Source: Okeania sp. SIO2B3 | GTDB taxonomy: Bacteria; Cyanobacteriota; Cyanobacteriia; Cyanobacteriales; Microcoleaceae | DNA: 64,000 nt | Reading direction: 5' to 3' | Assembly (NCBI RefSeq): GCF_010672525.1 | Contig: NZ_JAAHGH010000032.1 | Coordinates: forward strand, 1-64,000 | In this document: piece by piece, positions 4,963-31,387 of the stretch | Layout: the number at the start of each line of letters is the position of its first letter | Numbering within the stretch: position 1 is the stretch's first letter | Made by a program: the position numbers and the translations under genes | The notes under the pieces: model-generated | What the model was told of the DNA's origin: nothing | The model's database searches: none | The model's input: the letters and a program-made list of their open reading frames with translations, nothing else

Positions 4963-5520
4963 GTCTGAGGTCTGAGGTCTGAGGTCTGAGGTTGTAGGTG
5001 TTTACATATCAAGACTTACGCAAATTGACTATTAAAGCACCATTTGTAAGGGTAAGTAATATTCTTTCTTGCTATATGTAGAGTCTCTGTGTAAGTCCTG
5101 ACATATTTTATTTGAGGTGATACCAATTTGATAAATGTTTCTTACAAATGGTAGGGACGCCCTTATGCAACGTACGTACGAAAGAAGAAGGAGGCAAGGA
5201 GGAAAAAGGGGTAAACATTCAAAAAAATGGAAAAAAGATAGAGATAACTATCTAAAATGAACTGGAGCAGCTATTTTTAAGCATATCCGATCAATATCTA
5301 CCTTTTTGTAGCATCCTTTTTTCACGCTTGGTATGACACAGAATTATGAAATTTATTGCGTTGCACAGCGACGAATGATTTTGGATGTTTGATAAAAATA
5401 ATTTTTGATTTGAGAATTAGTAAAATAAATAAAATCATTTTTCGTAATTTTTGGCCATAAAAATCTATTCACCTATTCCCTATTCCCTAATCTTGCAAAA
5501 AGTCTATATCTTTTTCGGAG
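4963..5520. other. lpxC-fabZ spacer with repeats
   Basis: Begins with four copies of the heptamer 'ggtctga' just after the lpxC stop. Then comes an imperfect palindrome bounded by 'agacttacgc' and 'gtaagtcctga' (5010-5100), related to the 89-bp family E elements. It is followed by a family D repeat (5119-5337). The remaining 180 bp is AT-rich with 'ctattccctattccct' near 5475. No gene seen. Confidence 0.6.
5119..5337. repeat. Dispersed repeat family D, copy 1
   Basis: About 219 bp from TACCAATTTGATAAATGTTT to TTTTTTCACGCTTGGTAT. It contains 'gtagggacgcccttatgcaacg' and 'aagatagagataactatct'. A near-complete inverse copy lies at 15147-15356, and looser relatives lie at 12645-12845 and 48446-48690. 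Termini are inverted (ATACCAA/TTGGTAT), so it is MITE-like. Confidence 0.65.
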
Positions 5521-6090
5521 ATGTCTAATGGTAAAATCAAGACTGCCAATCAAGAACTGTACATAATGTCAACCTCTGAAAAAACTACAACAGATTCAGC
5601 ACAAACCACAGAAAATTCTTCAACTCAGCAAAATCAGGATGCTGCGACTACTGGGGTAAATATTATGACAGTTGAAGAAATTCACAAACTGTTACCCCAC
5701 CGATATCCCTTTGCTTTGGTAGACCGTATTATAGAATATGTACCAGCAGAAAGAGCGGTAGGTATTAAAAATGTGACTTTTAATGAACCCCATTTTCAAG
5801 GGCATTTTCCTGGACGACCAATTATGCCAGGGGTATTAATCATAGAAGCAATGGCTCAGGTTGCAGGCATAGTCTTTGCTCAAATGCCAGAGCTTCAGAA
5901 AGGATTATTTGTATTTGCAGGTATGGATAAGGTTAGGTTTCGTCGCCCAGTAGTTCCAGGAGACCAATTAATATTAAAGACAGAATTATTATCTGTTAAA
6001 GGTGGCAAGTTTGGTAAAGTGCAAGGTCTTGCAGAAGTGGATGGTCAAAAAGCCGCAGAAGGAAATTTGATGTTTTCAATAATGGATTGA
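5521..6090 (+). CDS. fabZ: 3-hydroxyacyl-ACP dehydratase FabZ
   Basis: Up to 189 residues; the hot-dog fold core starts near residue 49 ([16 protein letters not shown]). Dehydrates beta-hydroxyacyl-ACP in fatty acid elongation, supplying acyl chains also used by lipid A synthesis. The catalytic His (H95 in FQGHFPGRP) and Glu (E109 in LIIEAMAQ) are present. The N terminus of about 48 Ser/Thr/Gln-rich residues is not part of the fold. Starts at 5566 or 5665 are possible, 5665 giving a 141-residue protein near the usual size. I list the longest form. It ends 3 bp before lpxA, so the two are very likely co-transcribed. Confidence 0.9.
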
Positions 6091-6093
6091 AGT

Positions 6094-6921
6094 ATGCCTA
6101 CTCTGATTCACCCAACAGCTGTTATTGCTGAAAGTGCCGAATTGCATCCCACTGTACAAGTCGGTCCCTATGCTGTAATAGAGGAACAGGTTAAGGTAGG
6201 TGCGGGAACTACCATTGGCGCTCATGTCGTGATCGAAGGGCCAACAGAAATTGGCTCTGGTAATCGGATTTTTCCTGGGGCAGCTATTGGTATAGAACCA
6301 CAAGATTTGAAATATGCAGGTGCTCCAAGTTGGGTAAAAATTGGCAACAATAACAAAATCAGGGAATACGTTACAGTTAATCGCGCTACTTATGCAGGTG
6401 AGAGTACTGTTATTGGTAATGACAATTTACTGATGGCTTATGTCCATGTGGCGCACAATTGTATTATTGAAGATTCTGTGGTCATAGCTAATGCTGTATC
6501 TTTAGCAGGCCATGTCAAAATTGAGTCAAAAGCTGTAATTGGTGGGGTATTGGGTATTCATCAGTTTGTCCATATTGGTCAAATGGCAATGGTGGGTGGT
6601 ATGAGTCGTGTCGTTAGAGATGTACCACCATTTATGTTGGTCGAAGGACATCCTTGTTTGGTGCGATCGCTCAATTTATTAGGATTAAAGCGTGCTGGTT
6701 TGAACAGTGCAGATTTAGCAATATTGAAAAATGCTTTTCGGATTCTCTATCGTTCGGATAAACTTTTTAGTGAAGCTTTAGAGGAATTAGAGTTACTTTC
6801 AGAGAATAAGTATATCCAAGAATTACATCAGTTCTTAAGTATGTCTCTTGGGTCTAAACGTCGTGGACCGATGCCGGGAAAAATGTCGAAGGGAGTGAAG
6901 TTAGAGGAAGTTGATAATTAA
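6094..6921 (+). CDS. lpxA: UDP-N-acetylglucosamine acyltransferase LpxA
   Basis: 275 residues, close to the usual length. Transfers a 3-hydroxyacyl chain from ACP to UDP-GlcNAc, the first step of lipid A synthesis. The N-terminal two thirds is a left-handed beta helix of hexapeptide repeats (for example IGAHVV, IGSGNR, IGNDNL). The catalytic-type His is H121 in MAYVHVAHNC. The C-terminal helical part (about 195-270) is also complete. It follows fabZ by 3 bp. lpxB normally follows in cyanobacteria, but here 3.8 kb of mobile DNA and an unknown gene intervene. Confidence 0.94.
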   Translation: MPTLIHPTAVIAESAELHPTVQVGPYAVIEEQVKVGAGTTIGAHVVIEGPTEIGSGNRIFPGAAIGIEPQDLKYAGAPSWVKIGNNNKIREYVTVNRATYAGESTVIGNDNLLMAYVHVAHNCIIEDSVVIANAVSLAGHVKIESKAVIGGVLGIHQFVHIGQMAMVGGMSRVVRDVPPFMLVEGHPCLVRSLNLLGLKRAGLNSADLAILKNAFRILYRSDKLFSEALEELELLSENKYIQELHQFLSMSLGSKRRGPMPGKMSKGVKLEEVDN

Positions 6922-7212
6922 TCAAGTTTTTGTTAAGTAGAGGGAGGTAAAAAATTGCTCCAACTGATACAAAGCAATAATTCTCAGACTTTTTCAATTA
7001 TGTATATCATTATCTAAGTAGGGCTTGCAAAATTAATTACACATACTCTAAAGATAAAAAGCTGATGCTGTAAAAATTACAGAGAATAAAATTAGGTAAT
7101 TAATTTTGCTTAAGCACTTATTAAATTGTCTATTGGGACTTACACAAGTAGATGAAGAAAATTAGTCTATAATACCTATAAAATAAAGATTTTATCTCAA
7201 AGATTCATTTCC

Positions 7213-8391
7213 ATGAAAAAGATCACTCCTAGTGCTATGCCTCCTTGCTTTGAAACATGGTGTAAAAAGTTTGATGATTGTTGGAAAAACCAGTCCCAGA
7301 AAACAGGATTTAGGCATTATTTAGGTGGTTTACTAGGAGAGAATGAAAAGAAAAACATATCTCAAATGGCCAATGAATCAATTGGAATAGTCTATAATCG
7401 ATTACATCATTTCATCGCAGATTCTTCTTGGAATACAGATCAAATTAATAAACGTCGCTTGGAAATAATTAACAAATTTTCTCAAACCAATTTCTGTAGA
7501 GGATTTAGTTTGATTTTAAATGATTCTGGACATAGAAAAAGTGGTGATTTTACATCTGGAGTAGGCCGACAATATATTGGATAAATTGATAAAACAAATA
7601 ATAAAATAGTAACGGTAACAACTCATTATTATGATGGCAAAAAAAGTTTACCTTTAGATATTAAATTATATCAACACTCCTATTCTTTAGAAGAAAAGGC
7701 AAGCATAGGAATAGAGTTAATAGACCAAACCCTAAACAGAGGTCATCATCCGGGAATAGTTTTAATTGATACAGACTATGGCAATAATACAATATTTCTG
7801 AAGAAACTAGAAGAAAGGAAATTAAAATATCTAGGAGGAATTGCAAAAAACCGTTTGCGTAGCATTCCGTAGGAAAAAGTAATAGTTAAACAAAAATCCC
7901 AACCAGAAACAGAAATTAGAATAGATGAATTAGCAGAAAGCTTACCAGCAGATACATTTGAATCAGTTATCTTAAGTGTAGAAAAACCAAAAATAATTTG
8001 GGTTACCACATTTAGAGCACCGATTTCACCCCTCGAAGGAGAAAGAGCTTTTACTATCGTTATGAATGCTAGTTCTCTAGAAGAGGCAACAGAAATTGAT
8101 TATTTTATCACAAATGTTGAGAATTCAAAAGCGACATCTGAGTGGATAGTAAATACTTACTCAAACAGAAATTGGATAGAGGTTTTTTACCGAGAAGCCA
8201 AAGGGTGGTTGGAGTTAAAAGAGTATGAACTTAGAGATGAATATCAACTTAGAGATGAATATCAACTTAGAGATGAATGGAGCCTAGAACGCCATTTTAT
8301 ATTGGTATTTTGTGCTTATACTTTTATCATTTGGCATAAGTTAACTGGAGCGTTAGAAAAACAATGGGCAAGTGGCATTGCTGAATTAAAA
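7213..8391 (+). pseudogene. IS701-type DDE transposase, two in-frame stops
   Basis: A single reading frame (frame of 7213) encodes FRHYLGGLLGENEKKNISQM, SLILNDSGHRKSG and VGRQYIG, then after a TAA at 7582 continues with TVTTHYYDGKKSLPLDIKLY and IVLIDTDYGNN. After a TAG near 7870 it continues to NRNWIEVFYREAKGWLELKEYE and ERHFILVFCAYTFIIWH. This is the order of an IS701-family transposase: DDS motif, second Asp region, and the final E in YREAKGWLE. The TAG sits in a short palindromic repeat (GTTTGCGTAGCATTCCGTAG) that seems to have inserted. No frameshift is needed, so decay is recent. The left terminus may be the GGGACTTACACAAG near 7137. Confidence 0.75.
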
Positions 8392-9777
8392 TATGAAAGT
8401 AGGTTTACAGGGAATAGGGAACAGGGAATAGGGAACAGGGAAAAGTTAATATTAACAAGTAGTCCAAACAATTCAACATACAAAAGCGCTCCAAACAATT
8501 CAACATACAAAATAAAAAATACAAAATTATCAAATCATAGGGCAAGTAAACCTTTGACAACGTTAGATAAGGCAAGTAGACTTTTGACAACGTTACTAAT
8601 CTTACATTATCTATTATCTCAATTAGCATTAGCGCTAATTTTAATTAATAGACTTTTTCTCTCCAAGGATTATATAGGGGATAAGGAGCGTTATTGCCAG
8701 AATTCTTATCCATCAGCATACAATAACATTGATGAGTTTAAGGCGGTTTTGCGTGAGGGAGCTAAGGCAGAGGCAGTCGAAAAGTTATTCCCAGAAAATA
8801 AACTTAAAGATTTTATAGGTAAAGATAATGCTACTTCTAAAAGAGAAGAACTGATTCCTATTCTCAAAGAATCTGTAGTTCTAGAAGAAGAAAAATATGA
8901 GAACAGCAAGAGTGATTTGGGTAAGTCTTGCATATATTTCAAGCCAATTCAAAAGCTTGAAGATAAGATGTTTGAGCCTATAGAATTTGAAGTGCCATAC
9001 TGTGCTTCAGATATAAGTGTTTCTGGGAAAAAAATACAGGAAGAAAAAGATGACGCAATAATTGCTCGACTTAAAGAGCATGAACCTAAACTTGGACAAC
9101 GTGGAAGGAAGGAAATTTTAAGCTTGGTGGAAAAGCAGGTTTCTGAGAGAAATTTAAATAGTGAGGAAGATTGTGAACTCAGTGAACTAATCAAGATTAG
9201 TATATTGCCAATCAAGCTTCAGGCAATTTTAACAGCAGATGAATTTAAAAATATACCCGAAGTTAAAGGAGTAGATGAAAACAACAAAAAAGCTGAGTTT
9301 CAATTCACTGTCTTGTCAGACAAGTACAACTGGGAGTTTAGTAGCGATGATAAAACTCAGTTGAAAGGAAAAGATGCTAGTATTCGTAATTTGCTTTCTG
9401 GAGAATATATGATTTTGGGCTTTAGAAAAGTTTCTGAACTAATTAGTGTTGGTACTGCTTCATGCGAGGGAGGAACAGCCACAGAAAATGAGAGATCCAA
9501 AATTAGAGCTGGCAAGTTGGATGAATGGTTGCAGGAAGCTCTAGAAAAGCACAACCTCAAACACAAACCAAGATACACTTTGAACCTAGGAAAGTACAAA
9601 GGAGAATGTTCACCAAAGACTGAACAAGAGACAGCTCCTCAACGTAGAATCATTATCATCGGTATTATAGATAGAGACAAAGACGTAAATTTATCTGAAG
9701 CTCTTCGTAATGCTATGGAAAAGAGGCGAGATTTGTCATTTTATATCAAGAATTATAGTATCTTTGAGTTGGATTGA
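8062..9777 (+). CDS. Fusion reading frame: transposase tail plus an unrecognised ~365-residue region
   Basis: 571 codons, open without interruption. Residues 1-110 are the C-terminal third of the IS701-type transposase, including a tandem EYQLRD peptide repeat. Residues 113-205 are repeat-encoded (NREQGIGNREK, doubled PNNSTYK and doubled LTT segments). Residues 205-571 look like ordinary charged protein with predicted helices and a beta-rich part ending RRIIIIGIIDRDKDVNLSEALRNA. I recognise no family there. The last codons abut the right end of an IS200/IS605 element whose GATTGACATCC supplies the stop, so the original C terminus may be lost. No ribosome binding site was seen at 8062. The unknown part may be a truncated gene rather than an expressed fusion. 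Confidence 0.4.
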   Translation: MNASSLEEATEIDYFITNVENSKATSEWIVNTYSNRNWIEVFYREAKGWLELKEYELRDEYQLRDEYQLRDEWSLERHFILVFCAYTFIIWHKLTGALEKQWASGIAELKYESRFTGNREQGIGNREKLILTSSPNNSTYKSAPNNSTYKIKNTKLSNHRASKPLTTLDKASRLLTTLLILHYLLSQLALALILINRLFLSKDYIGDKERYCQNSYPSAYNNIDEFKAVLREGAKAEAVEKLFPENKLKDFIGKDNATSKREELIPILKESVVLEEEKYENSKSDLGKSCIYFKPIQKLEDKMFEPIEFEVPYCASDISVSGKKIQEEKDDAIIARLKEHEPKLGQRGRKEILSLVEKQVSERNLNSEEDCELSELIKISILPIKLQAILTADEFKNIPEVKGVDENNKKAEFQFTVLSDKYNWEFSSDDKTQLKGKDASIRNLLSGEYMILGFRKVSELISVGTASCEGGTATENERSKIRAGKLDEWLQEALEKHNLKHKPRYTLNLGKYKGECSPKTEQETAPQRRIIIIGIIDRDKDVNLSEALRNAMEKRRDLSFYIKNYSIFELD

Positions 9778-18691: not shown

Positions 18692-19051
18692 TTAGCAGTT
18701 GCAACAAAAAATCCGATTTTTTGAATAGCACCAATGAGGAAAATCTTGTTTTTCGGAAGAGATATTAACTGTTGTTTCAAAATCAATATATTGAACATCC
18801 TCATACTCAACATTGCAAATTTCTTGAAAATAAAAATGATTTCCAAATATTGCATCACAATCAGGACAACCAAATGAAGTGTATGAGTTTCTAACTGTTT
18901 TGCTATAGCGAGATTTAATTTTGCCCATTTTCATGTTTTGACGTTTAGCTTTTTCAGTCTTCAAGCATTCATAAGCTTTACTTACAATCCCAGGGATAAA
19001 TTGAGGCTCACCATTTGTAATAATTTCCCAAATCAAAATTAACGTCACCAA
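18692..19051 (-). pseudogene. Fragment of an unrecognised protein with a CxxC motif
   Basis: 119 codons. The first residues are encoded by sequence that on the other strand belongs to the permease remnant at 19040 onward, so the original N terminus is missing. The middle reads GCPDCDAIFGNHFYFQE, a possible metal-binding CxxC, and the end is HWCYSKNRIFCCNC. I do not recognise the family. Most likely the C-terminal part of a truncated gene in a region of gene debris. Confidence 0.35.
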
Positions 19052-19930
19052 TGCTTACGCAGGGTCTCTCGCTTGGTCTAACTTTTTCTCTCGCCTCACC
19101 CATTCTCACCCTGGTAGAGTAGTTTGGTTAATTTTCAATGTAGCGATCGCTCTGTTATTAATGGAACTAGGAATATTTGAAACTTTAGAATCTATTTTGG
19201 GTCTCTATTCTAATGTTGCCATTGCCTGGATAGGAACGATAGTCGCCGATCTAGTCGTAAATAAACCCCTCAAACTCAGTCCCTCCTACATTGAATTTAA
19301 ACGCCCTTACCTCTATAACATTAATCCCGTAGGCTTTGGTGCAATGGCGATCGCTTCGGTTGTTGCCATTATGGCATTTGTTGGGTTCTTTGGCCCCTTC
19401 CTACAAGCATATTCCCCCTTTATCGCCCTTACTGTTGCATTCTGTCTATCCCCGATCATCGCCTTAGTTACCAAAGGCAAATATTACATTGCCCGACAAA
19501 ACACCGTCCGGACTCTTAACCTCAGTGACTCTTTACTCACCTGCTCTATTTGTACTGAAAGCTATGAAGCCCAAGATATGGCATTTTGTCCTGTTTATGA
19601 CGGATATATTTGCTCACTATGCTGTAGTTTAGATGCTCGCTGTGACGATCAATGTAAGAAAGAAACACCTGAAATTGCTGAGGATAAAAATAGCTTTAGC
19701 CAGAAACTAATTAGGAGCAAAACTTCACCTCTACTAGGTCAAAGAATTATCAAATTTTTGGGAATCTTTCTTTCTATTGCAGGCATTCTAGCTGCATTTT
19801 TGGGATTACTTTATTATCTACAGATAGAACAGTTATGGGGAATCTCAAGTTACACCAAGCAACTTGTAGCGAGTATCATTGAAGTAGTTTTCTTTTCCGT
19901 TCTACTAAACTTACCCAAACTTACCCATAA
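19040..19930 (+). pseudogene. Remnant of a permease-fused sensor gene (membrane part)
   Basis: The frame is open from about 19040 (NVTNAYAGSLAWSNFFSRLT), upstream of the ATG at 19161, to the stop at 20006. It has eight or so hydrophobic segments and resembles the C-terminal half of purine-cytosine (NCS1-type) permeases (VWLIFNVAIALLLMELG, INPVGFGAMAIASVVAI). A cysteine-rich segment follows (CSICTESYEA...CSLCCSLDARCDDQC), then two more membrane spans. In cyanobacteria such modules sit at the front of hybrid histidine kinases (from memory). The 5' part is absent and the 3' part is cut by the TnpB element; its continuation appears at 21275-21500. Confidence 0.55.
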
Positions 19931-21270
19931 GAGTTTTGGAGCTAGCTTCCTGTCTCACAGAAGATCACTGACCGCAGTCTGTAACTTATCTTCTCCTCAG
20001 GCTTAAAATCGGTGGGAACTCCACCTACTTATTCACATAGTTTTCTAGATTGACCGCAGCATTAAAGTCTCTGTCAGTTTCACAACCACAAGCTCCACAT
20101 TCGTATCGTCTCGCACTCAATGGCATTTTCTGTTTGTGCCCGCACTGAGAACATATCTGAGAACTTGGATAAAATCTATCTGCTATCACTAACTTACTTC
20201 TATACCACTCGCACTTATATGTTAGCTGACGCTTAAACTCATAAAAGCCACAGTCTGCTATCGCACTTGCTATTTTGTGATTCTTGAGCATTCCACTGAC
20301 ATTCAAGTCTTCTATCACTATGGTGCTGTGGTTTTTAGCTAACCATGTTGTTAATTTATGTAGTGCATCGGCTCTAGTATCGGCTACTTTTTTGTGAATC
20401 TTGGCTAGTTTTTTTACGGCCTTAGCTCTGTTTTTTGTTTGCGTAGCATTCCGCAGGAAACCAAGTTCTTTTTTCTTGAGACGCCGTTGATAACGAGTTA
20501 GTCGTTTTTTAGCTTGCCTATATGGTTTAACGTTAGCAAATTTGGTTCCATCACTACAGGTGGCTAAGGTGTTGATACCTACATCTACACCAATAACAGC
20601 TCGTTCTTTAGGAGTAGGAGTAAGATTAGGAACTGGCTCCAAATCATATTTAAAGCTGATGTACCAATTATTTGCTTTTTTTGAGATAGTCACATTTTTG
20701 ACTGGTACAGATGGTAAGATTTCATAAGTTTTGACTCTTCCTATCCTTGGCAATTGTATGTAGTTTCCGTGCAAAATTTTAATATTTCCTTCTAGATAAA
20801 AACTGTCTTTTTGACCTTTTTTCTTAAACTTAGGAAATCTACATTTAGGAATAGTTAAAAAGTTTTTAAACGCCCTGTCTAAATCTCTTAATGCTTGCTG
20901 GGGAGCGCACTTTGATACTTCATAATACCAAGGATTTTCACTTTTAACTTCAGCAATTAAGCGCTTATGCAAGGTAATTGCACTAGGCCGTTTTTTCGTT
21001 AATTTATATTCCTCGATACAAGTATTTAATCCCCAGTTATAAGCATGACGAGCCACACCTGTGTGTTTGGCCAGCAGCGTCTTTTGGTAATTGTTAACTT
21101 TTAACTTGGTCTTAATTGACTTCATTGGAACTGGTAAGCAGCAACAAAAAAAGCTTTTTTATATATAACAAAAGTTACTATAATATAGAAATAGGAGAGT
21201 ATCAGCATATTTTTAATATTTATTAATATTTGTCTAACTTTGTCCAATTATTTTGCTTCAGTAGTAAACC
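19931..21270 (-). mobile_element. IS200/IS605-type element carrying tnpB, inserted in the sensor gene
   Basis: Bounded by the two halves of the interrupted permease/sensor gene, so its extent is defined by the host sequence to within tens of bases. It carries tnpB (20025-21125, minus strand) and no tnpA. The 3' flank of tnpB (19931-20024) contains the inverted segments 'cctgtctcacagaag' and 'tggagctagcttcc' that may fold. Exact ends were not resolved. Confidence 0.6.
20025..21125 (-). CDS. tnpB: RNA-guided endonuclease TnpB family protein
   Basis: 366 residues, normal for TnpB. In the family this is a RuvC nuclease guided by a right-end RNA. Catalytic residues are in place: D181 (GVDVGINTLAT), E272 (IEDLNVSGM) and D353 (DRDFNAAVN). 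Zinc ribbon cysteines are C325, C328, C343 and C346. Residues about 222-229 (GFLRNATQ) come from a copy of the 24-bp family C palindrome at 20440-20464, in frame. They lie in a surface-type stretch before KNRAKAVKKLAKIH. The element interrupts the permease/sensor gene. Start is the ATG at 21125 (MKSIKTKLKV), which gives the usual N terminus. Confidence 0.85.
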   Translation of the reverse strand: MKSIKTKLKVNNYQKTLLAKHTGVARHAYNWGLNTCIEEYKLTKKRPSAITLHKRLIAEVKSENPWYYEVSKCAPQQALRDLDRAFKNFLTIPKCRFPKFKKKGQKDSFYLEGNIKILHGNYIQLPRIGRVKTYEILPSVPVKNVTISKKANNWYISFKYDLEPVPNLTPTPKERAVIGVDVGINTLATCSDGTKFANVKPYRQAKKRLTRYQRRLKKKELGFLRNATQTKNRAKAVKKLAKIHKKVADTRADALHKLTTWLAKNHSTIVIEDLNVSGMLKNHKIASAIADCGFYEFKRQLTYKCEWYRSKLVIADRFYPSSQICSQCGHKQKMPLSARRYECGACGCETDRDFNAAVNLENYVNK

Positions 21271-21274
21271 CTAC

Positions 21275-21505
21275 TCTTACCTATTGGTATAGGGGTGTGG
21301 TGGTTAGTCTTAAGTGAAGAAAGTCGTGAACGAGCTGAGGCAGAACTAGATAAACAAAATATACAATTGCAACAGGAAATTGCTGAACGCAAACGTGCGG
21401 AAATTGCTCTCCAAGAACTTGCCCAGGAATTAGAAATTCGGGTAGAACAACGGACCGCTGAATTATCAGAAGCATTGCAAAACTTAAGAGATCGTAATTT
21501 TCATG
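21275..21505 (+). pseudogene. Remnant of the sensor gene: coiled-coil part
   Basis: Encodes WWLVLSEESRERAEAELDKQ followed by IQLQQEIAERKRAEIALQEL, AQELEIRVEQRTAELSEALQ. This is the signalling coiled coil typical after the input domain of cyanobacterial hybrid kinases. It follows the TnpB element and continues the frame of the remnant at 19040. After about 21505 the sequence switches to unrelated DNA, so the kinase domain is gone. Confidence 0.6.
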
Positions 21506-21563: not shown

Positions 21564-22136
21564 TCAGGATATTGCACACCTACAGCCTCCCTGGTTTTTA
21601 CATTCCAAGTAACATAATTTGGTCGCACATACATAGCCGAAAATGTCTTGATTTTTTTTGCTTTTTGCGACTCCCTTAGCATCAAATTCGACATAATCCT
21701 GAAGATCCAATTCCGTCCAATTAGCCGGTCCGACAATAAACCCATTATTTGAACCCATTGCCTTTGAAGAACCGGATGTAACCATGGCATGCGCGACATA
21801 TTCTTGATTAGGCTGGCCCGATGAATTGACTCCAGTAAATATCAGGGCAAATCCTGCAGTTAAGCCTTTTAGTTGATCCATATTTTCGATGCGGTTAGTT
21901 TTGCCTTCGATGAAAAAGTACTGGATAACGTCATTGTTAGTCAGACTTTTTGGGACTACTTTAAAAATCCCGCACAAATATGTGTAATACTGAACTGAAT
22001 TGTAGCATATTTCCACACTAAGCTTTCTGATCTCTTTATCGAAAGTCTTTTGGTCGTAGTGACGCCGACATTTTTCTGTGACTTTATTGGATTCTCTCAC
22101 CTCTTCTGTTATTTTATCGAACTCGCTATATTCCAT
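21564..22136 (-). CDS. Unrecognised 190-residue protein with a cysteine-rich end, downstream of lodAB
   Basis: 190 residues from an ATG at 22136 with a good ribosome binding site (AAAGGAG, 8 bases upstream). The N-terminal 60 residues are charged and helical. The middle (about 85-150) looks like a globular beta-rich domain (LKGLTAGFALIFTGVNSSGQ). The end has five cysteines in 22 residues (VCATKLCYLECKNQGGCRC). I recognise no family. It is on the same strand as lodA and lodB, 562 bp further down, and shares their less AT-rich composition. A role with the oxidase, as a partner or a secreted product, is speculation. Confidence 0.55.
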   Translation of the reverse strand: MEYSEFDKITEEVRESNKVTEKCRRHYDQKTFDKEIRKLSVEICYNSVQYYTYLCGIFKVVPKSLTNNDVIQYFFIEGKTNRIENMDQLKGLTAGFALIFTGVNSSGQPNQEYVAHAMVTSGSSKAMGSNNGFIVGPANWTELDLQDYVEFDAKGVAKSKKNQDIFGYVCATKLCYLECKNQGGCRCAIS

Positions 22137-22698: not shown

Positions 22699-23757
22699 TC
22701 AGTTCATTGATTTCCATACCAAATTATTGTGAAATCTCTGCCGTGTCGCCAGGTAAGCCCCAAAAATTTTCCGCAACTTTTCGGAATAGACTCCCAATGC
22801 AAAATCCGAATCGCTGCCCAAGCGCTCTTCAATAGCCTCCGCCGCTTGCCAGGCCGTGTATACCGCATTGGTTATCCCATGTGAAGACAAGGGGTCGAAA
22901 GCGATCGCCGCATCGCCCAAAGCCAACCAGTCCGAGCCAGCAATTTCATTACTGCAAATCGAATTGGCAGCCGATACAAAGACTGGAGACCAAACTTCAC
23001 CAGCCAGAAAAGCTTGCAATATCTGTGTTTCGGAAAGCAAAGTTTGCCAATGATCATATTCCCGCATTTTCAAGCTTTGAGGGCTGCCCTTTTCAGCATA
23101 AAGTGTCATCACATTAGTCCTTTGATCCAAACTGGATACAATTCCCCATCCACCTTCAAATGCCTCCGTAAATACTCCATGCTTGATTTTAGGGTGTCGG
23201 ATACGAGGAAGATGACAACTGAAAGCGATCTGTTGGTCATACACCGTGCTGCCAATTCCCAGTCTCCTCAATAGAGCTTTCTTCCTTCCCGTGGCATCCA
23301 CAAAAATCTGCCCATATAGATCAAAAGGCTTTTCTACTGAATTTACCCGAATACATCGGTCCTCTTCCTTCCAAGACCAATCCTTGCACTGCAAACTCCT
23401 GTGGCTGTCCAAACAGCCCTCCAATTTGTGCAGCAATAACTGTTTGTCCAGTTTCAAACCATAATTATAGGGGTGCTGGAAATAAAAATTGATATCCTGA
23501 ACCTGAGAACTTCCCCATAGGGAATGATATCCTAAAGTTTTTTCCAGAGCACTTTCCTCAAAAACCTCCCGCAACCCAAGTTGCTGTATCATCGCCAATG
23601 CAGAAGGTGGCAGAGTTTCCGCTAGCGCCATGACTTTCTGCTGCATTTCTCTTGTCAGAAGGAAATATTCAATCCCCTTTCTTTGCAAAAGCACAGAAAG
23701 ACACAACCCGGCGATCCCTCCACCAACGATCGCAACATCACTATGGATCGAAGCCAT
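22699..23757 (-). CDS. LodB/GoxB-like FAD-dependent maturase of a quinocofactor oxidase
   Basis: 352 residues. The N-terminal dinucleotide-binding motif is VAIVGGGIAGLCLS (G12, G14, G17). The C-terminal flavin motif is GDAAIAFDPLSSHGITNAVY (about 277-296), a pattern seen in LodB-like flavoproteins and flavin halogenase relatives. LodB-type proteins are needed to build the cysteine tryptophylquinone cofactor in LodA-type oxidases (established for Marinomonas). Its ATG directly follows the stop of the LodA-like gene (TAGATG), so they are surely co-transcribed. Halogenase motifs (WxWxIP) are not visible, and the neighbour makes the LodB role far more likely. Confidence 0.82.
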   Translation of the reverse strand: MASIHSDVAIVGGGIAGLCLSVLLQRKGIEYFLLTREMQQKVMALAETLPPSALAMIQQLGLREVFEESALEKTLGYHSLWGSSQVQDINFYFQHPYNYGLKLDKQLLLHKLEGCLDSHRSLQCKDWSWKEEDRCIRVNSVEKPFDLYGQIFVDATGRKKALLRRLGIGSTVYDQQIAFSCHLPRIRHPKIKHGVFTEAFEGGWGIVSSLDQRTNVMTLYAEKGSPQSLKMREYDHWQTLLSETQILQAFLAGEVWSPVFVSAANSICSNEIAGSDWLALGDAAIAFDPLSSHGITNAVYTAWQAAEAIEERLGSDSDFALGVYSEKLRKIFGAYLATRQRFHNNLVWKSMN

Positions 23758-25869
23758 CTAATGAATACCACCTTTTCCGTCGTAAGCTACATAGACGATA
23801 TCAGGAATTTCGAGTTCAGGACCCACCTCAGACTTTCGACCTGTCACCATACCAACGCTTTTCCATTTATATACCATAGCAATCAACCCATTCTGGTAGC
23901 CAGCTTCAGCGTGGTAACCTACAAATCCAGTATCGGCGCTATGAAGCCAGGGCAAGCGGTTAGCGTAAATATATCGGCGGGTTTCCGGAATGAGACTTTG
24001 ATCCTGGACTTTTTTGAGGCTTTCAGCCGTCAATATGGTAACAGGTAAATTAGCTGCCCACCAAGCAGGTACTGGATATTGCATATCAATGAATACAGTC
24101 TGGCAACTTCCTGCATCCGATTGCCAAGGAATTCCCATCCATTTAGTCAAGTCTCCAGGAGTGGCTTCCCAGAGCCAATGCTTGGGATTGGATGGGTCAA
24201 GAGATTCCTGGACATCATAGGGAACCATTTCAAATCCAAAATCATTGTAGAAAATCTCTTTTTTGCGTTCTGGACTGGCAGCATTGATGCGAACTTCCCA
24301 TAAACCATAAAATCCATAGGAGAGTTCTTTGCCCTCGTTGACAAATTCATAGATGCGATGGTTTTCGGCATACATCTGATTATGGCGCATAGGCCAGGTA
24401 AGCTCTACCCCTGGGTGGAAACCACCTCCATACAGTGTCTCCAGAACAGCTCTGGTCATCAGCAACGGACTCCTGGCAGGATCTTGAGCTGCTTCCAGAA
24501 ATTGACGTTGGTAAAAACAGCCCATTTCATCCATGTCCTTAAAATTGAAATCGGGTGGAGTGGTAAATTTGCCGTCTCTCCATTGTTTCAATTGTTCGTA
24601 GAGAAAAGGAGGTATGGCAAACCACTGGGCTGGACTACCAGGATAATTGATTCCGTCCCCGGGATAAGTTGGGTATTTCAGTTCGTCTGTTTCAGTACCC
24701 AACTGGGTGAGGTCTGTCTTTTGATTGCTAGGAATCACCGGTTCATTGTCGTAATCGTAAATAGGATTCCGAAACAGGTTAAAAATTTGTTTGCGAACCT
24801 CCTCACATTCTGGGCTGTTGGAATAAATGCAATGAAATTTATTCTGAGCATAGAGTTGATCGATAGTTTCCCGGAAAGAAGGGGCAAGGAAATCACTGGC
24901 ATTGACCCATTGCATGCGGTAGAGCCGATATAGCAAAGGGAAAACCAGGCTCAGTTCAGGAGTAAATGTCTCGTCTGCTGCCCCTACGATCAGGTCAAAA
25001 AGGGTAGAAAGGGGCTGGATTTGGGGAGCATAATCTGGCGGAGTGGTTGCGATCCAAGCAGCGGATTTGGCATCAGTCAAATCATAGCTTTTTTTCGTAG
25101 TTTTGTGGGTAATTTTAGCCGTGATGATACCATCACAAATATCATCGTACCAATTGGAATTATCGGCAAAATCAGTGTTCAGATCGGAAGGATTCAAAGA
25201 AGCCGAAGTGCCGTCTGCTCCATAAAAAATCAGGGTTCCTTCATCGTATTCAACGGTACCTAACTTCACATTTACAGAAGACTTCTTCAATTTTGCAGCG
25301 ATTCTGCTGATTTTGGCTCCACCATCTTTTGAATGATGTGGATAAGGGAACATACCGCAAATCTCCTGCCGGGGGCAATGGGAAGAAACTGTTATCGGGG
25401 GAGGGCTATTGACTAATTCCTTCCGGAAATTTTCTCCTCCATGTTTGCGCAGACCTTCATTCAGGACATTAGGGTTGCGGTATGTGGTGCTGATGGCGGG
25501 AGCAATGCGTTCATCGTAAAAATTAGGACTGAGGTTTTGGTGGTTTTCCAACTGAATAGAAAGGTCTAGACAGTTGTTGAAATTGTACCAAAAAGGCTTT
25601 TTATTAGCCACTTCTGCAGTCCACTCAATGTCATATTCCGCTGGGTCAATCTTCTTTATAGGGTTGCCTGCTTCATCACATTGATAAATGTAAAACCGCT
25701 GGGCCTGTTTCTTGATCTCGCCTTTATCGGTCAAATATTCATTGTCTGTTTCAAATAGATTTGCCCATGGGATTTCCGGGCTGAAGATGACCTGGTCTTT
25801 TTCAGCAGGACCATTCCCAAGGCGTGCAATACCTATGGAGGGATAAATTCTAAATTTAGGATTTTCCAT
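23758..25869 (-). CDS. LodA-like oxidase with a cysteine tryptophylquinone cofactor
   Basis: 703 residues from the ATG at 25869 (MENPKFRIYP); an upstream in-frame TTG adds two. LodA-type enzymes oxidise amino acids (lysine, glycine and others), giving hydrogen peroxide. Family hallmarks: RIYPSIGIARLGNG at the start, the GGGFHPGVE block near 481, and MGIPWQSDAGSCQ near 577. C589 is the predicted cross-linked cysteine and D585 lies four residues before it, the same spacing as D512 and C516 of LodA. The partner Trp is probably W641 (NRLPWLHSAD), with W603/W604 as alternatives. Substrate cannot be read from sequence. No signal peptide. Codon use is less AT-rich than the neighbours. Confidence 0.85.
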   Translation of the reverse strand: MENPKFRIYPSIGIARLGNGPAEKDQVIFSPEIPWANLFETDNEYLTDKGEIKKQAQRFYIYQCDEAGNPIKKIDPAEYDIEWTAEVANKKPFWYNFNNCLDLSIQLENHQNLSPNFYDERIAPAISTTYRNPNVLNEGLRKHGGENFRKELVNSPPPITVSSHCPRQEICGMFPYPHHSKDGGAKISRIAAKLKKSSVNVKLGTVEYDEGTLIFYGADGTSASLNPSDLNTDFADNSNWYDDICDGIITAKITHKTTKKSYDLTDAKSAAWIATTPPDYAPQIQPLSTLFDLIVGAADETFTPELSLVFPLLYRLYRMQWVNASDFLAPSFRETIDQLYAQNKFHCIYSNSPECEEVRKQIFNLFRNPIYDYDNEPVIPSNQKTDLTQLGTETDELKYPTYPGDGINYPGSPAQWFAIPPFLYEQLKQWRDGKFTTPPDFNFKDMDEMGCFYQRQFLEAAQDPARSPLLMTRAVLETLYGGGFHPGVELTWPMRHNQMYAENHRIYEFVNEGKELSYGFYGLWEVRINAASPERKKEIFYNDFGFEMVPYDVQESLDPSNPKHWLWEATPGDLTKWMGIPWQSDAGSCQTVFIDMQYPVPAWWAANLPVTILTAESLKKVQDQSLIPETRRYIYANRLPWLHSADTGFVGYHAEAGYQNGLIAMVYKWKSVGMVTGRKSEVGPELEIPDIVYVAYDGKGGIH

Positions 25870-26249
25870 ATTCAATAAACAATAAACAGTAGTTCATCAA
25901 TGAAGATTTTAAACTAGATAAAAAAACAATTAAAATCCAACAAGACCTATATAAGAGAACTTATCAATGGCATTTCTTTCTGTATCTAAAAGTGAAACAG
26001 TACTACCAGAATAATAATCAATCTCTAGATCTTCTAATAATTAGAATAAACTCCAACCAATAGAAAAGCAAGCAAAAAAGTTCATCTAAAAGTTCATATA
26101 AAACTAACATTTTCATCTAAAAGTTCATATAAAACTAACATTTTCATCTAAAAGTTCATATAAAACTAACATTTTCATATAAGATTTTTTCTAACAAAAC
26201 AAATGAAGGTATATTGAAAACACACTGAAATAAAATTTTTCAAATATAT
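25870..26249. other. Upstream region of lodA, promoter side
   Basis: Very AT-rich, unlike the genes it precedes. It holds the triple 31-bp repeat (26081-26173). No gene; any lodA promoter would lie here. Confidence 0.5.
26081..26173. repeat. Three tandem copies of a 31-bp repeat upstream of lodA
   Basis: Three perfect 31-bp units starting at 26081, 26112 and 26143 (ttcatctaaaagttcatata...), followed by a partial fourth, 'ttcatataag'. Each unit contains two 'gttcat/ttcat' half sites. An array this regular could bind a regulator, or may simply be replication slippage. Confidence 0.9.
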
Positions 26250-27915: not shown

Positions 27916-29061
27916 TTAGGATGAAACCTTAAGCTTCCTGGGAGTCCGATCCTTTATCTTCTGCTTCTTCCGCCGATCAAGAGGGAAAGTCTGTATATCA
28001 CTAATACTTTCAAAGTCTAAGCTACCAACATCAACCTTGCGGACTTGACGGTTGTTTTGAGTATGGTAATAGATTACCTTGTTTGTGATATCGTGAGCTG
28101 TTGTCCATTGGGTTGAACTCCGCATACCTGATGTGTCTATATCGTCATTTCCCTCAGATGCTCCAAGGGGAACATTAAAATTGTCAAGTATACGAAATAA
28201 TTCATACATCGTTTCAGGTCCGTCAGTGGTTTCTCTTGCAGTTTGAGAAAAAGCAACAGCACGGATAAAACGTGATGGAGGTGTAAAGTCTCCTGGAAGC
28301 CCAATCATTCCACTACCGCCACCTAATGGGCTAAAATCAATTGAGCCAATTTCCTGATCTGGAAGAGCTACAGGAGATATATTGACATAATTTCGTAAAT
28401 TAGTAATATGCCAGTCATATGTTGGGGCATTCGTAATAACCCCTAGTTCCGCATCAAAGATTTTTGGTTTGCCTTGTGACCATTCGATGACGATCTGTTC
28501 GCCTGAAGGATCGCTAACCATCAAGTGAGCTGGTGCAGGTATCCCAAGAGCTGGTTCCACAACATTTACCACTACGATCGAGTTTATTGCCTCACGGACA
28601 TCATCTACTGTGGCACAAGTGGAAAGAAGATAGTTGCCAACATCGGTGGGTGCCATTGACTTGTCTGCGATGGTTGGATCATAATCTATATATTCAGCGA
28701 AGCCTGGATGATAAAAGAGTCCGGCAGCCAATCCCTTTTCATTTATACCATCAAGGATAATTGGCTTCTCTAGACCATCTAATCCTACTACTCCATATTT
28801 GCCAGTCCACTTTATACCAGGTAAATGGACATTCTCATCATCAGAGAGTTCAGTAACAAACTCATGGCCCCTGGGCAGGAGCAATATTCGAGATTTAAAA
28901 TCAAATGAGCTCCATTCCAGTGTTCGACCATAGACCATAGCGCCATCTTCTGCTGTTAGGGTGATACCTGTACAAGCGTAAGCAACAGGTATTAGGCTAA
29001 TGAAACAAAACAGAAAGGCTAAAGCCAATGTCAGCACTATTGATTTTATGTTTTTCATCAC
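27916..29061 (-). CDS. Choloylglycine hydrolase family (linear amide C-N hydrolase), exported
   Basis: 381 residues. Ntn-fold hydrolase related to bile salt hydrolase and penicillin V acylase. A hydrophobic signal peptide (about 5-27) ends in VAYA directly before C30 (ACTGITLTAEDG), so signal cleavage would expose the N-terminal nucleophile Cys. Further family segments: VYGRTLEW (R46), INEKGLAAGLFYHPGF, and VMVSDPSG-like HLMVSDPSGEQIVIEW. Also present: ITNAPTYDWHITNLRNY (the conserved Asn) and LPGDFTPPSRFIRA (the conserved Arg). In cyanobacteria the substrate is unknown; N-acyl homoserine lactones or other amides are possible. The basic tail (RRKKQKIKDRTPRKLK) is unusual. It sits between the two copies of the nucleotidyltransferase module. 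Confidence 0.88.
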   Translation of the reverse strand: MMKNIKSIVLTLALAFLFCFISLIPVAYACTGITLTAEDGAMVYGRTLEWSSFDFKSRILLLPRGHEFVTELSDDENVHLPGIKWTGKYGVVGLDGLEKPIILDGINEKGLAAGLFYHPGFAEYIDYDPTIADKSMAPTDVGNYLLSTCATVDDVREAINSIVVVNVVEPALGIPAPAHLMVSDPSGEQIVIEWSQGKPKIFDAELGVITNAPTYDWHITNLRNYVNISPVALPDQEIGSIDFSPLGGGSGMIGLPGDFTPPSRFIRAVAFSQTARETTDGPETMYELFRILDNFNVPLGASEGNDDIDTSGMRSSTQWTTAHDITNKVIYYHTQNNRQVRKVDVGSLDFESISDIQTFPLDRRKKQKIKDRTPRKLKVSS

Positions 29062-30598: not shown

Positions 30599-31387
30599 GA
30601 TTTATACAGCATATTCCTCAGAGGATGTCTGAAAAGTTTTTTGATACTTAATTTTGCCCCCCTAACCCCCCAACTTTGGGGGGAATAAGAGTCAATTTGC
30701 TTCTAAAATTCCCCCAATTTTGGGGGATGCGCGGGGGCTTGGATGTAGTAAATGGGACTTCTCAGACAACCTATCCCATAAGAAATACAGATATTAAAAA
30801 TTAAATATTCCCAGTGCGGGCATCTTGCCCGCGATGTGTCTACCTTACCAAAATTATCAACTTTCTTACTTTTGACTTTTGACTTTTGACTTTTGACTTA
30901 AAAAAGACGCGATGTGTCTACCTTACCAAAATTATCAACTTTCTTACTTTTAACTTTTAACTTTTGACTTTTGACTTAAAAAAGACGCGATGTGTGTACC
31001 TTACTAAAATTATCAACTTTCTTACTTTTAACTTTTAACTTTTAACTTTTGACTTAAAAAAGACGCGATGTATCTACCTTACCAAAATTATAAATTTTCT
31101 TACTTTTAACTTTTGACTTTTGACTTACAAAAGATGCGATGTGTGTACCTTACCAAAATTATCAACTTTCTTACTTTTGACTTTTGACTTTTGACTTAAA
31201 AAAGACAGTAAGCATTCAGCTATTAGCTGTCAGCTATCAGCAAAAAGACTCTATGTTATTGGACAGTGTTTAAATTAACAACTGACTTTAAGAGAAAGGA
31301 AGGCAACTTTTGCAGTAAGACAATTCATAAAGCTTTTATCCTAAACTAAAAGCAATAGCTGATAGCTGATGGCTGACGGCTGAATGC
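30599..31387. other. Repeat-rich spacer with G/C hairpin and tandem array
   Basis: Begins with a hairpin of C and G runs ('ccccccaactttggggggaa', 30668-30687, and 'cccccaattttgggggatgc', 30713-30732). Then comes a five-unit tandem array (30831-31207), then 'cagctatcag/gctgatagctgat' inverted runs near 31210 and 31356. No gene. Confidence 0.65.
30831..31207. repeat. Five tandem units of about 71-78 bp
   Basis: Units start at GCGATGTGTCTACCTTACC (30831), then 30909, 30987, 31065 and 31136. Each contains 'aaaattatcaactttcttac', a run of TTTTGAC heptamers and 'ttaaaaaagac'. Spacing is 78, 78, 78 and 71 bp, the difference being one heptamer. Confidence 0.9.

Follow-up and report, generated by a model that had tools for sequence, protein, structure and literature searches.

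The stretch of DNA analysed here, called the window below, comprises positions 1 to 64,000 of contig NZ_JAAHGH010000032.1 (64,000 nucleotides) from the cyanobacterium Okeania sp. SIO2B3. It carries two adjoining genes on the minus strand, predicted to encode a cysteine tryptophylquinone (CTQ) oxidase and the flavoprotein that matures it. In brief, the goxA/lodA-like gene (23758..25869, minus) encodes the 703 residue oxidase, identified from its open reading frame (ORF) and from profile and PDB matches, and the lodB/goxB-like gene (22699..23757, minus) encodes a 352 residue maturase of the flavin adenine dinucleotide (FAD) type. The start codon of the second gene abuts the stop codon of the first, the junction reading CAT TAG ATG GCT. 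A TTG at 25875, two codons upstream of 25869, is an alternative start for the oxidase. The N-terminal motif RIYPSIGIARLG forms residues 7-18 of the oxidase, and its RIYPSIG core begins at residue 7. An initial annotation, made from the letters of the DNA alone, had pointed to this motif, to D585 and C589, and to a LodB-like flavoprotein joined stop-to-start (TAGATG). All of these are located where it placed them, and the LodB and GoxB maturase models of NCBIfam are the best for the second gene, which also matches a Pfam FAD-binding domain. The same annotation held the pair to be richer in G+C than its surroundings, and this is borne out: lodA has 44.6% G+C (42.5% at third codon positions) and lodB 46.0% (46.7%), against 35.5% for the window, and the two rank highest in both measures among the 27 window ORFs examined.

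One scan of the genome collection with six peptide patterns of the query, a design that leans to close relatives, gave 50 homologous loci. Three are cyanobacterial and 91-93% identical (Okeania sp. SIO1I7, Symploca sp. SIO2E6 and Okeania sp. SIO3I5; G003, G251 and G285 below), one is a partial locus from Leptolyngbya cf. ectocarpi (70%), 42 come from Bacteroidota (56-68%), one from Polyangium (62%) and three from Pseudoalteromonas (43%). A LodB-like ORF lies beside 48 of the 50; in L045 and L056 lodA reaches the contig end. The count of gene families gives lodB in 47 loci, having missed L033. Among the four close cyanobacterial copies the ratio of nonsynonymous to synonymous substitution rates (dN/dS) is 0.15-0.18 for lodA and 0.25-0.31 for lodB. 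Given the number of homologous loci, the constancy of the LodB-like partner and these low ratios, the gene pair is not a chance arrangement. A third conserved gene of the unit was looked for among the 25 largest families, besides lodA and lodB, common to at least 3 of the 50 loci, and none looked part of it; nearly all are neighbours shared within a genus, and families 11, 16 and 21 join different genera. The promoter scan gave seven sites where 9.0 were expected, and the terminator scan five where 3.5 were expected. Compared with G003 in 200-base segments, lodA is 86.5-95.5% and lodB 94.5-98.0% identical. Two lodA patches, at 25492-25193 and 24592-24193 (86.5-90.5%), are more divergent than lodB and suggest recombination within lodA.

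The oxidase belongs to the LodA-like family, matching the Pfam domains LodA_N (135.2 bits, E 4.1e-39; cut-off 26.3) and LodA_C (85.4 bits, E 4.1e-24; cut-off 25). Within that family its sequence is GoxA-like rather than LodA-like, because a PDB sequence search matches PlGoxA, the CTQ glycine oxidase of Pseudoalteromonas luteoviolacea, at E 1.4e-184 and LodA, of the lysine epsilon-oxidase LodA/LodB of Marinomonas mediterranea, at E 2.8e-16, and because five residues probed in PlGoxA are kept. A fold search with the predicted oxidase model agrees, with PlGoxA chains in rows 1-44 and LodA chains in rows 45-50 (8.8e-15 or weaker). Of the original reading, a LodA/LodB-like quinocofactor pair in a cyanobacterium, the family and the flavoprotein partner stand and the LodA type does not, as the GoxA match is far stronger. 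In the profile search that the initial annotation had proposed, the domain models match and neither equivalog cut-off is reached: the oxidase scores 113.1 against 600 for LodA (NF038172) and 357.6 against 750 for GoxA (NF038173). We do not claim it as a member of the curated GoxA equivalog.

The genome of strain SIO2B3 provides an internal control for the LodA model. Outside the window, on contig C23 (12000-21866, L103), lies a second pair at 5507-9217. Its oxidase (L103 5507-7939, 810 residues) scores 759.6 on the LodA model, compared with only 113.1 for the window oxidase, and matches the LodA structure at E 1.3e-152; its maturase (L103 8033-9217, 394 residues) scores 423.3 on the LodB model (cut-off 400). 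This second pair is a predicted lysine epsilon-oxidase LodA/LodB, above both NCBI cut-offs. The genome holds LodA-type and GoxA-type pairs, as is described for M. mediterranea (PMC4417212).

The PDB titles name PlGoxA mutants F316A, H583C, D678A/E/N, Y766F and H767A, all of them in glycine-bound or glycine-soaked form. By manual counting along the PDB match alignment, F316, H583, D678, Y766 and H767 correspond to F234, H485, D585, Y652 and H653 of the window oxidase, so that all five are kept. They are identical in 39 of 39 close sequences. Among 14 distant cyanobacterial paralogs F234 is found in 8, H485 in 6, D585 in 14, Y652 in none and H653 in one. PlGoxA (PDB 6byw, 6eer and the mutants) and the window oxidase are homologous over their full length and also share an Asp-x-x-x-Cys motif and a WW motif. 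They differ in that PlGoxA has about 85-90 extra residues after position 57, and in that the cofactor and substrate of the window oxidase are predicted ones. In three Pseudoalteromonas relatives, as in the window, a LodB-like gene adjoins that of the oxidase; identity of the Pseudoalteromonas proteins to the window oxidase is only 43-48%. LodA shares the fold, the Asp, Cys and Trp of the CTQ site and a LodB-type partner; it differs in the weakness of the match (18% identity in structural alignment). Closer are the loci of Kordia algicida OT-1 and Tenacibaculum ovolyticum DSM 18103, 64 and 65% identical, in both of which lodA is followed by a LodB-like gene. The lodB ORF of K. algicida begins about 250 bases after lodA, whereas in the window, with its cyanobacterial host, it starts directly at the stop codon. 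These two loci may be the unclustered group II copies that PMC4417212 reports from Kordia and Tenacibaculum.

The CTQ of LodA is formed from C516 and W581 (PMC4417212). In the alignment of the second-pair oxidase with the LodA structure 3weu, the Asp-x-x-x-Cys motif contains D512 and C516, and a count by hand puts W581 at the second position of the WW motif. Through this oxidase the LodA residues can be carried over to the window, with codon coordinates computed from the start at 25869. C589 (24103..24105, minus) aligns with LodA C516 and is the predicted CTQ Cys, and D585 (24115..24117, minus) aligns with LodA D512 and PlGoxA D678. We identify W604 (24058..24060, minus) as the predicted cofactor Trp, because its counterpart in the second-pair oxidase aligns with LodA W581; it also aligns with PlGoxA W697. 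All 39 close and all 14 distant sequences have both C589 and W604. The initial annotation had put forward Trp 641 as the partner, and this is ruled out: all 39 close sequences have W641, but only 9 of the 14 paralogs keep it, with F, Y or a gap in the other five. Three further tryptophans were rejected. W603 is missing in 7 and W669 in 4 of the 14 paralogs; W582 is invariant but precedes C589, whereas LodA W581 follows C516. By analogy with characterised relatives, C589 and W604 are predicted to crosslink into CTQ.

The predicted model of the partner (mean predicted local distance difference test score, pLDDT, 87.9) has an FAD-binding fold of the halogenase/QhpG type. It resembles flavin halogenases and hydroxylases, and QhpG, a peptidyl tryptophan dihydroxylase (PDB 7ctq), comes at rank 16. 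The flavoprotein fold and a role in tryptophylquinone formation are shared with QhpG, which differs in its target, QhpC, and in that it starts from an unmodified Trp and inserts the two oxygens itself (PMC7876137). CTQ formation depends on LodB and GoxB, whose substrate is the mono-hydroxylated Trp; the first hydroxylation is thought to be autocatalytic, with Asp taking part (PMC7876137).

The phylogeny places the cyanobacterial GoxA-like proteins among those of Bacteroidota. The rooting on Pseudoalteromonas is assumed. In a LodA tree of 54 proteins, which carries a flag for the long branches of the paralogs, the five cyanobacterial sequences form a cluster (95/86) within a larger group that includes Bacteroidota (100/99), and the 14 distant cyanobacterial paralogs all fall outside the 40-row GoxA-like clade. 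In a LodA tree of 39 proteins, which excludes the paralogs and the partial row, the four complete cyanobacterial sequences and 14 from Bacteroidota form one group (100/98). For this tree, a constraint that keeps the 31 Bacteroidota in one clade is rejected by the approximately unbiased (AU) test (p 0.0008); the constraint also separates Polyangium and was chosen after the first tree was known. In the LodB tree of 32 rows the cyanobacteria lie inside Bacteroidota at 90/83. To limit the size of the sets, the LodA alignment omits 12 of the 50 loci (L014, L015, L027, L030, L031, L037, L042, L044, L045, L049, L051 and L056, the last of which was added to the first tree), and the LodB alignment 17 of 48, Polyangium among them. 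The phylogenetic check suggested by the initial annotation thus speaks for nesting in Bacteroidota in the LodA trees, not for vertical descent among cyanobacteria.

Counting the window's own genome each time, LodA-like matches occur in 16 of 291 genomes of the order, 3 of 386 in a phylum-wide draw and 3 of 5 of the genus. The close form is found, besides the own genome, only in G003 (same genus), G285 (same family) and G251 (another family). LodA-like protein identity to the window is 93% for G003, 92% for G285 and 92% for G251, and the LodB-like proteins give 95, 90 and 89%. For two control proteins of the window the identities are 95 and 96% to G003, 87 and 84% to G285, and 65-68 and 61-62% to G251. 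The G251 copy is too similar for vertical descent, given 92% against 61-68% for the controls. Sites without the pair are also at hand. In G001, of the same genus and with no match, about 1 kb separates the flanks of the locus, and this interval holds nothing resembling the pair; in G002 they lie about 2.9 kb apart, again without the pair. In G285 the flanks are about 0.2 kb apart on one contig, and the pair is on another contig beside an intact 966 residue gene with histidine-kinase domains. The horizontal acquisition proposed by the initial annotation is supported by the nested position of the proteins, the discordant identities and the G001 site.

The last donor was probably a cyanobacterium of the G251 type, at about 44% G+C, rather than a typical member of the Bacteroidota, because the G+C excess of the pair matches the composition of G251. 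Five sampled G251 contigs have 42.6-44.8% G+C and G251 lodA has 45.2%. Of eight Bacteroidota lodA genes computed, six are at 35-42% and two at 45-46%. A border search at the locus found no clear terminal repeat or target duplication, hence we name no mobile element.

We consider it likely that the pair encodes a CTQ glycine oxidase with its own maturase, probably cytosolic, and that cyanobacteria received it from a Bacteroidota-type source and later passed it from family to family. By analogy with characterised relatives, the GoxA-like protein would be made as an unmodified precursor from a gene adjoining that of its maturase. W604 would be hydroxylated first, autocatalytically as is thought for relatives, and the LodB/GoxB-type flavoprotein would then bring about the second oxygenation and link the Trp to C589, which completes CTQ. 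Once mature, the enzyme would act in the cytosol and convert glycine to glyoxylate, ammonium and hydrogen peroxide. M. mediterranea GoxA produces peroxide and ammonium from glycine (PMC3948610), and PlGoxA is very specific for glycine (PMC6316408).

Several points weigh against this reading. The shortfall on the GoxA equivalog model is one, shared by six of six relatives tested, two Pseudoalteromonas included (363-395). The partner scores nearly equally on the LodB (148.4) and GoxB (147.6) models, both far under the cut-off of 400; Kordia and Pseudoalteromonas partners reach 190.4 and 186.3 at best. The predicted oxidase model has the right fold, with pLDDT below 50 at 481-492, 578-609 and 643-664, which are active-site segments; this is too low for the structural check proposed by the initial annotation, the placing of a Trp near C589. 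GoxA mutated at D678 still forms CTQ (PMC7876137), so that a part for D585 in maturation is only a possibility. Lastly, we found no activity or cofactor data in the literature for members of the oxidase's sub-lineage.

The main rival concerns the role. Compatible with the chemistry above, the enzyme might instead be exported or released as a peroxide weapon or in biofilm dynamics, which we regard as possible, if rather doubtful. Culture supernatants of M. mediterranea LD show glycine-dependent peroxide and a catalase-sensitive antimicrobial activity, the GoxA of this organism carries a twin-arginine signal (PMC3948610), and the first descriptions of LodA and AlpP presented them as antimicrobial proteins (PMC4417212). 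No export signal is seen on the window oxidase, and for this reason we place it in the cytosol: the open frame allows at most 8 further N-terminal residues before the present start, which leaves no room for a twin-arginine signal of the kind that belongs to group IIA/IIB GoxA. Among the 23 proteins whose N-termini were listed, the core is preceded by 5-8 residues in 17 and by 26-40 in six Aquimarina-type ORFs, which contain an internal ATG closer to it. According to PMC4417212 the unclustered group II proteins of Kordia, Tenacibaculum and P. citrea have no twin-arginine signal, and the strongly antimicrobial band of P. luteoviolacea was assigned to a flavoenzyme and not to PlGoxA (PMC6316408). 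A role of the cytosolic enzyme in glycine turnover is likewise put forward tentatively, and the antimicrobial or nitrogen-scavenging function suggested by the initial annotation is a conjecture.

It is unlikely, in our estimate, that an oxidase of the same CTQ class has another small amine or amino acid than glycine as its main substrate. Such a specificity would fit the modest identity to the Pseudoalteromonas group and the lack of a tested member of the sub-lineage in the literature found, and PMC4417212 reports several LodA-like groups that are without lysine oxidase activity and whose substrate is unknown. The conservation of all five residues probed in the glycine structures of PlGoxA argues for glycine.

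Two alternatives bear on the origin of the pair. Contamination of the G251 bin as the source of its 92% match is unlikely. The contig in question, C717, has 44.5% G+C, like five other sampled G251 contigs (a sixth read only N), and a 72-base stretch of it occurs at 31 listed places in G177, of the same genus as G251, with none listed in G000 (the window's genome), G003, G285 or G001. Two observations lean towards contamination and so tell against transfer between families: the 72-base repeat was not refound in the few G251 stretches examined, and one stretch of C717 shares 86% identity with G000 and G003. That the pair descended vertically from an ancient cyanobacterium and was lost many times is highly improbable, since the arguments for it, the scattered occurrence of LodA-like genes in cyanobacteria (9 of 313 genomes counted in 2014; PMC4417212) and a LodB tree that, to the detriment of our reading, leaves one Bacteroidota clade unrejected (AU p 0.079), face the paralogs outside the GoxA-like clade, the nested trees, the discordant identities and the sites without the pair in G001, G002 and G285.

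The enzyme type itself is known; new are its presence and its movement among cyanobacteria. In the open-access literature searched we came upon no account of a CTQ glycine oxidase from a cyanobacterium, the passage on group II in PMC4417212 names none of these organisms, and the characterised CTQ glycine oxidases in the literature consulted here come from two marine heterotrophs, M. mediterranea and P. luteoviolacea. The occurrence of the full pair in cyanobacteria, with an intact active site and under purifying selection, indicates that the two genes of this cofactor system move together as a cassette, first across phyla and then from one cyanobacterial family to another. Glycine is an intermediate of photorespiration in photosynthetic cells. 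A peroxide-making glycine oxidase in such a cell would be an unusual addition, if true. The short, signal-free oxidase is a candidate for work on cofactor maturation.

G251 has a LodA/LodB pair similar to the second pair of strain SIO2B3 (L100 5563-9194; 779.0 and 438.0 on the LodA and LodB models). Its contig C717 (L100 and L101, 29 kb) holds three LodA/LodB-like pairs, of 774 and 384, 514 and 390 (with one gene between), and 701 and 351 residues. Also encoded there are a flavin amine oxidase (PF01593), a protein with a sigma-70 domain and a CxxCH protein, and we read the region as an amino-acid oxidase island. It is conceivable, if a long shot, that the window oxidase offers a cytosolic one-step route from glycine to glyoxylate and ammonium outside the glycine cleavage system, and that cyanobacterial families exchange this trait as a cassette that also includes a true lysine oxidase pair. 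We entertain this because the SIO2B3 and G251 genomes both hold an above-cut-off LodA/LodB pair and a GoxA-like pair; in G251 these two share a contig with a third pair and the flavin amine oxidase.

Downstream of lodB, a 190 residue ORF (21564..22136, minus) has no Pfam or NCBIfam match and ends in GGCRCAIS. Among the matches listed for the six genomes searched with this region, it was found only in G003 (L098 4219-4791), and it is probably not part of the two-gene unit. In G285 a different ORF of 214 residues, with no Pfam match, takes its place. Beyond it lie two remnants of a histidine-kinase-domain gene (19013..19898 and 21269..21486, both plus), corresponding to the gene that is intact beside the pair in G285. 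The left border of the remnant is the same as in G003, and the presence of such a broken neighbour beside the pair fits a fragment carried along by transfer or relocation. The two parts are split by an insertion (19899..21268) with an IS605 OrfB/TnpB-type ORF (20025-21125, minus). This insertion is absent here in G003 and G285, and we take it to be a later event. The intact G285 gene (L099 3105-6005) encodes HisKA and HATPase_c domains, and its N-terminal half, in which no Pfam match was found, reads as transporter-like. A relative of this gene at 67% DNA identity is found on contig C237 of the window's own genome.

On the other side of the pair, a gene at 27916-29061 (minus) encodes a choloylglycine hydrolase/penicillin V amidase-like protein (CBAH, 233 bits) whose N-terminus is hydrophobic. 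It is kept beside the site in G001 and G285, both of which are without the oxidase pair there. Short repeats lie near the locus at 26070-26193 and 30830-31207, the latter with many overlapping matches in G004 (L106).

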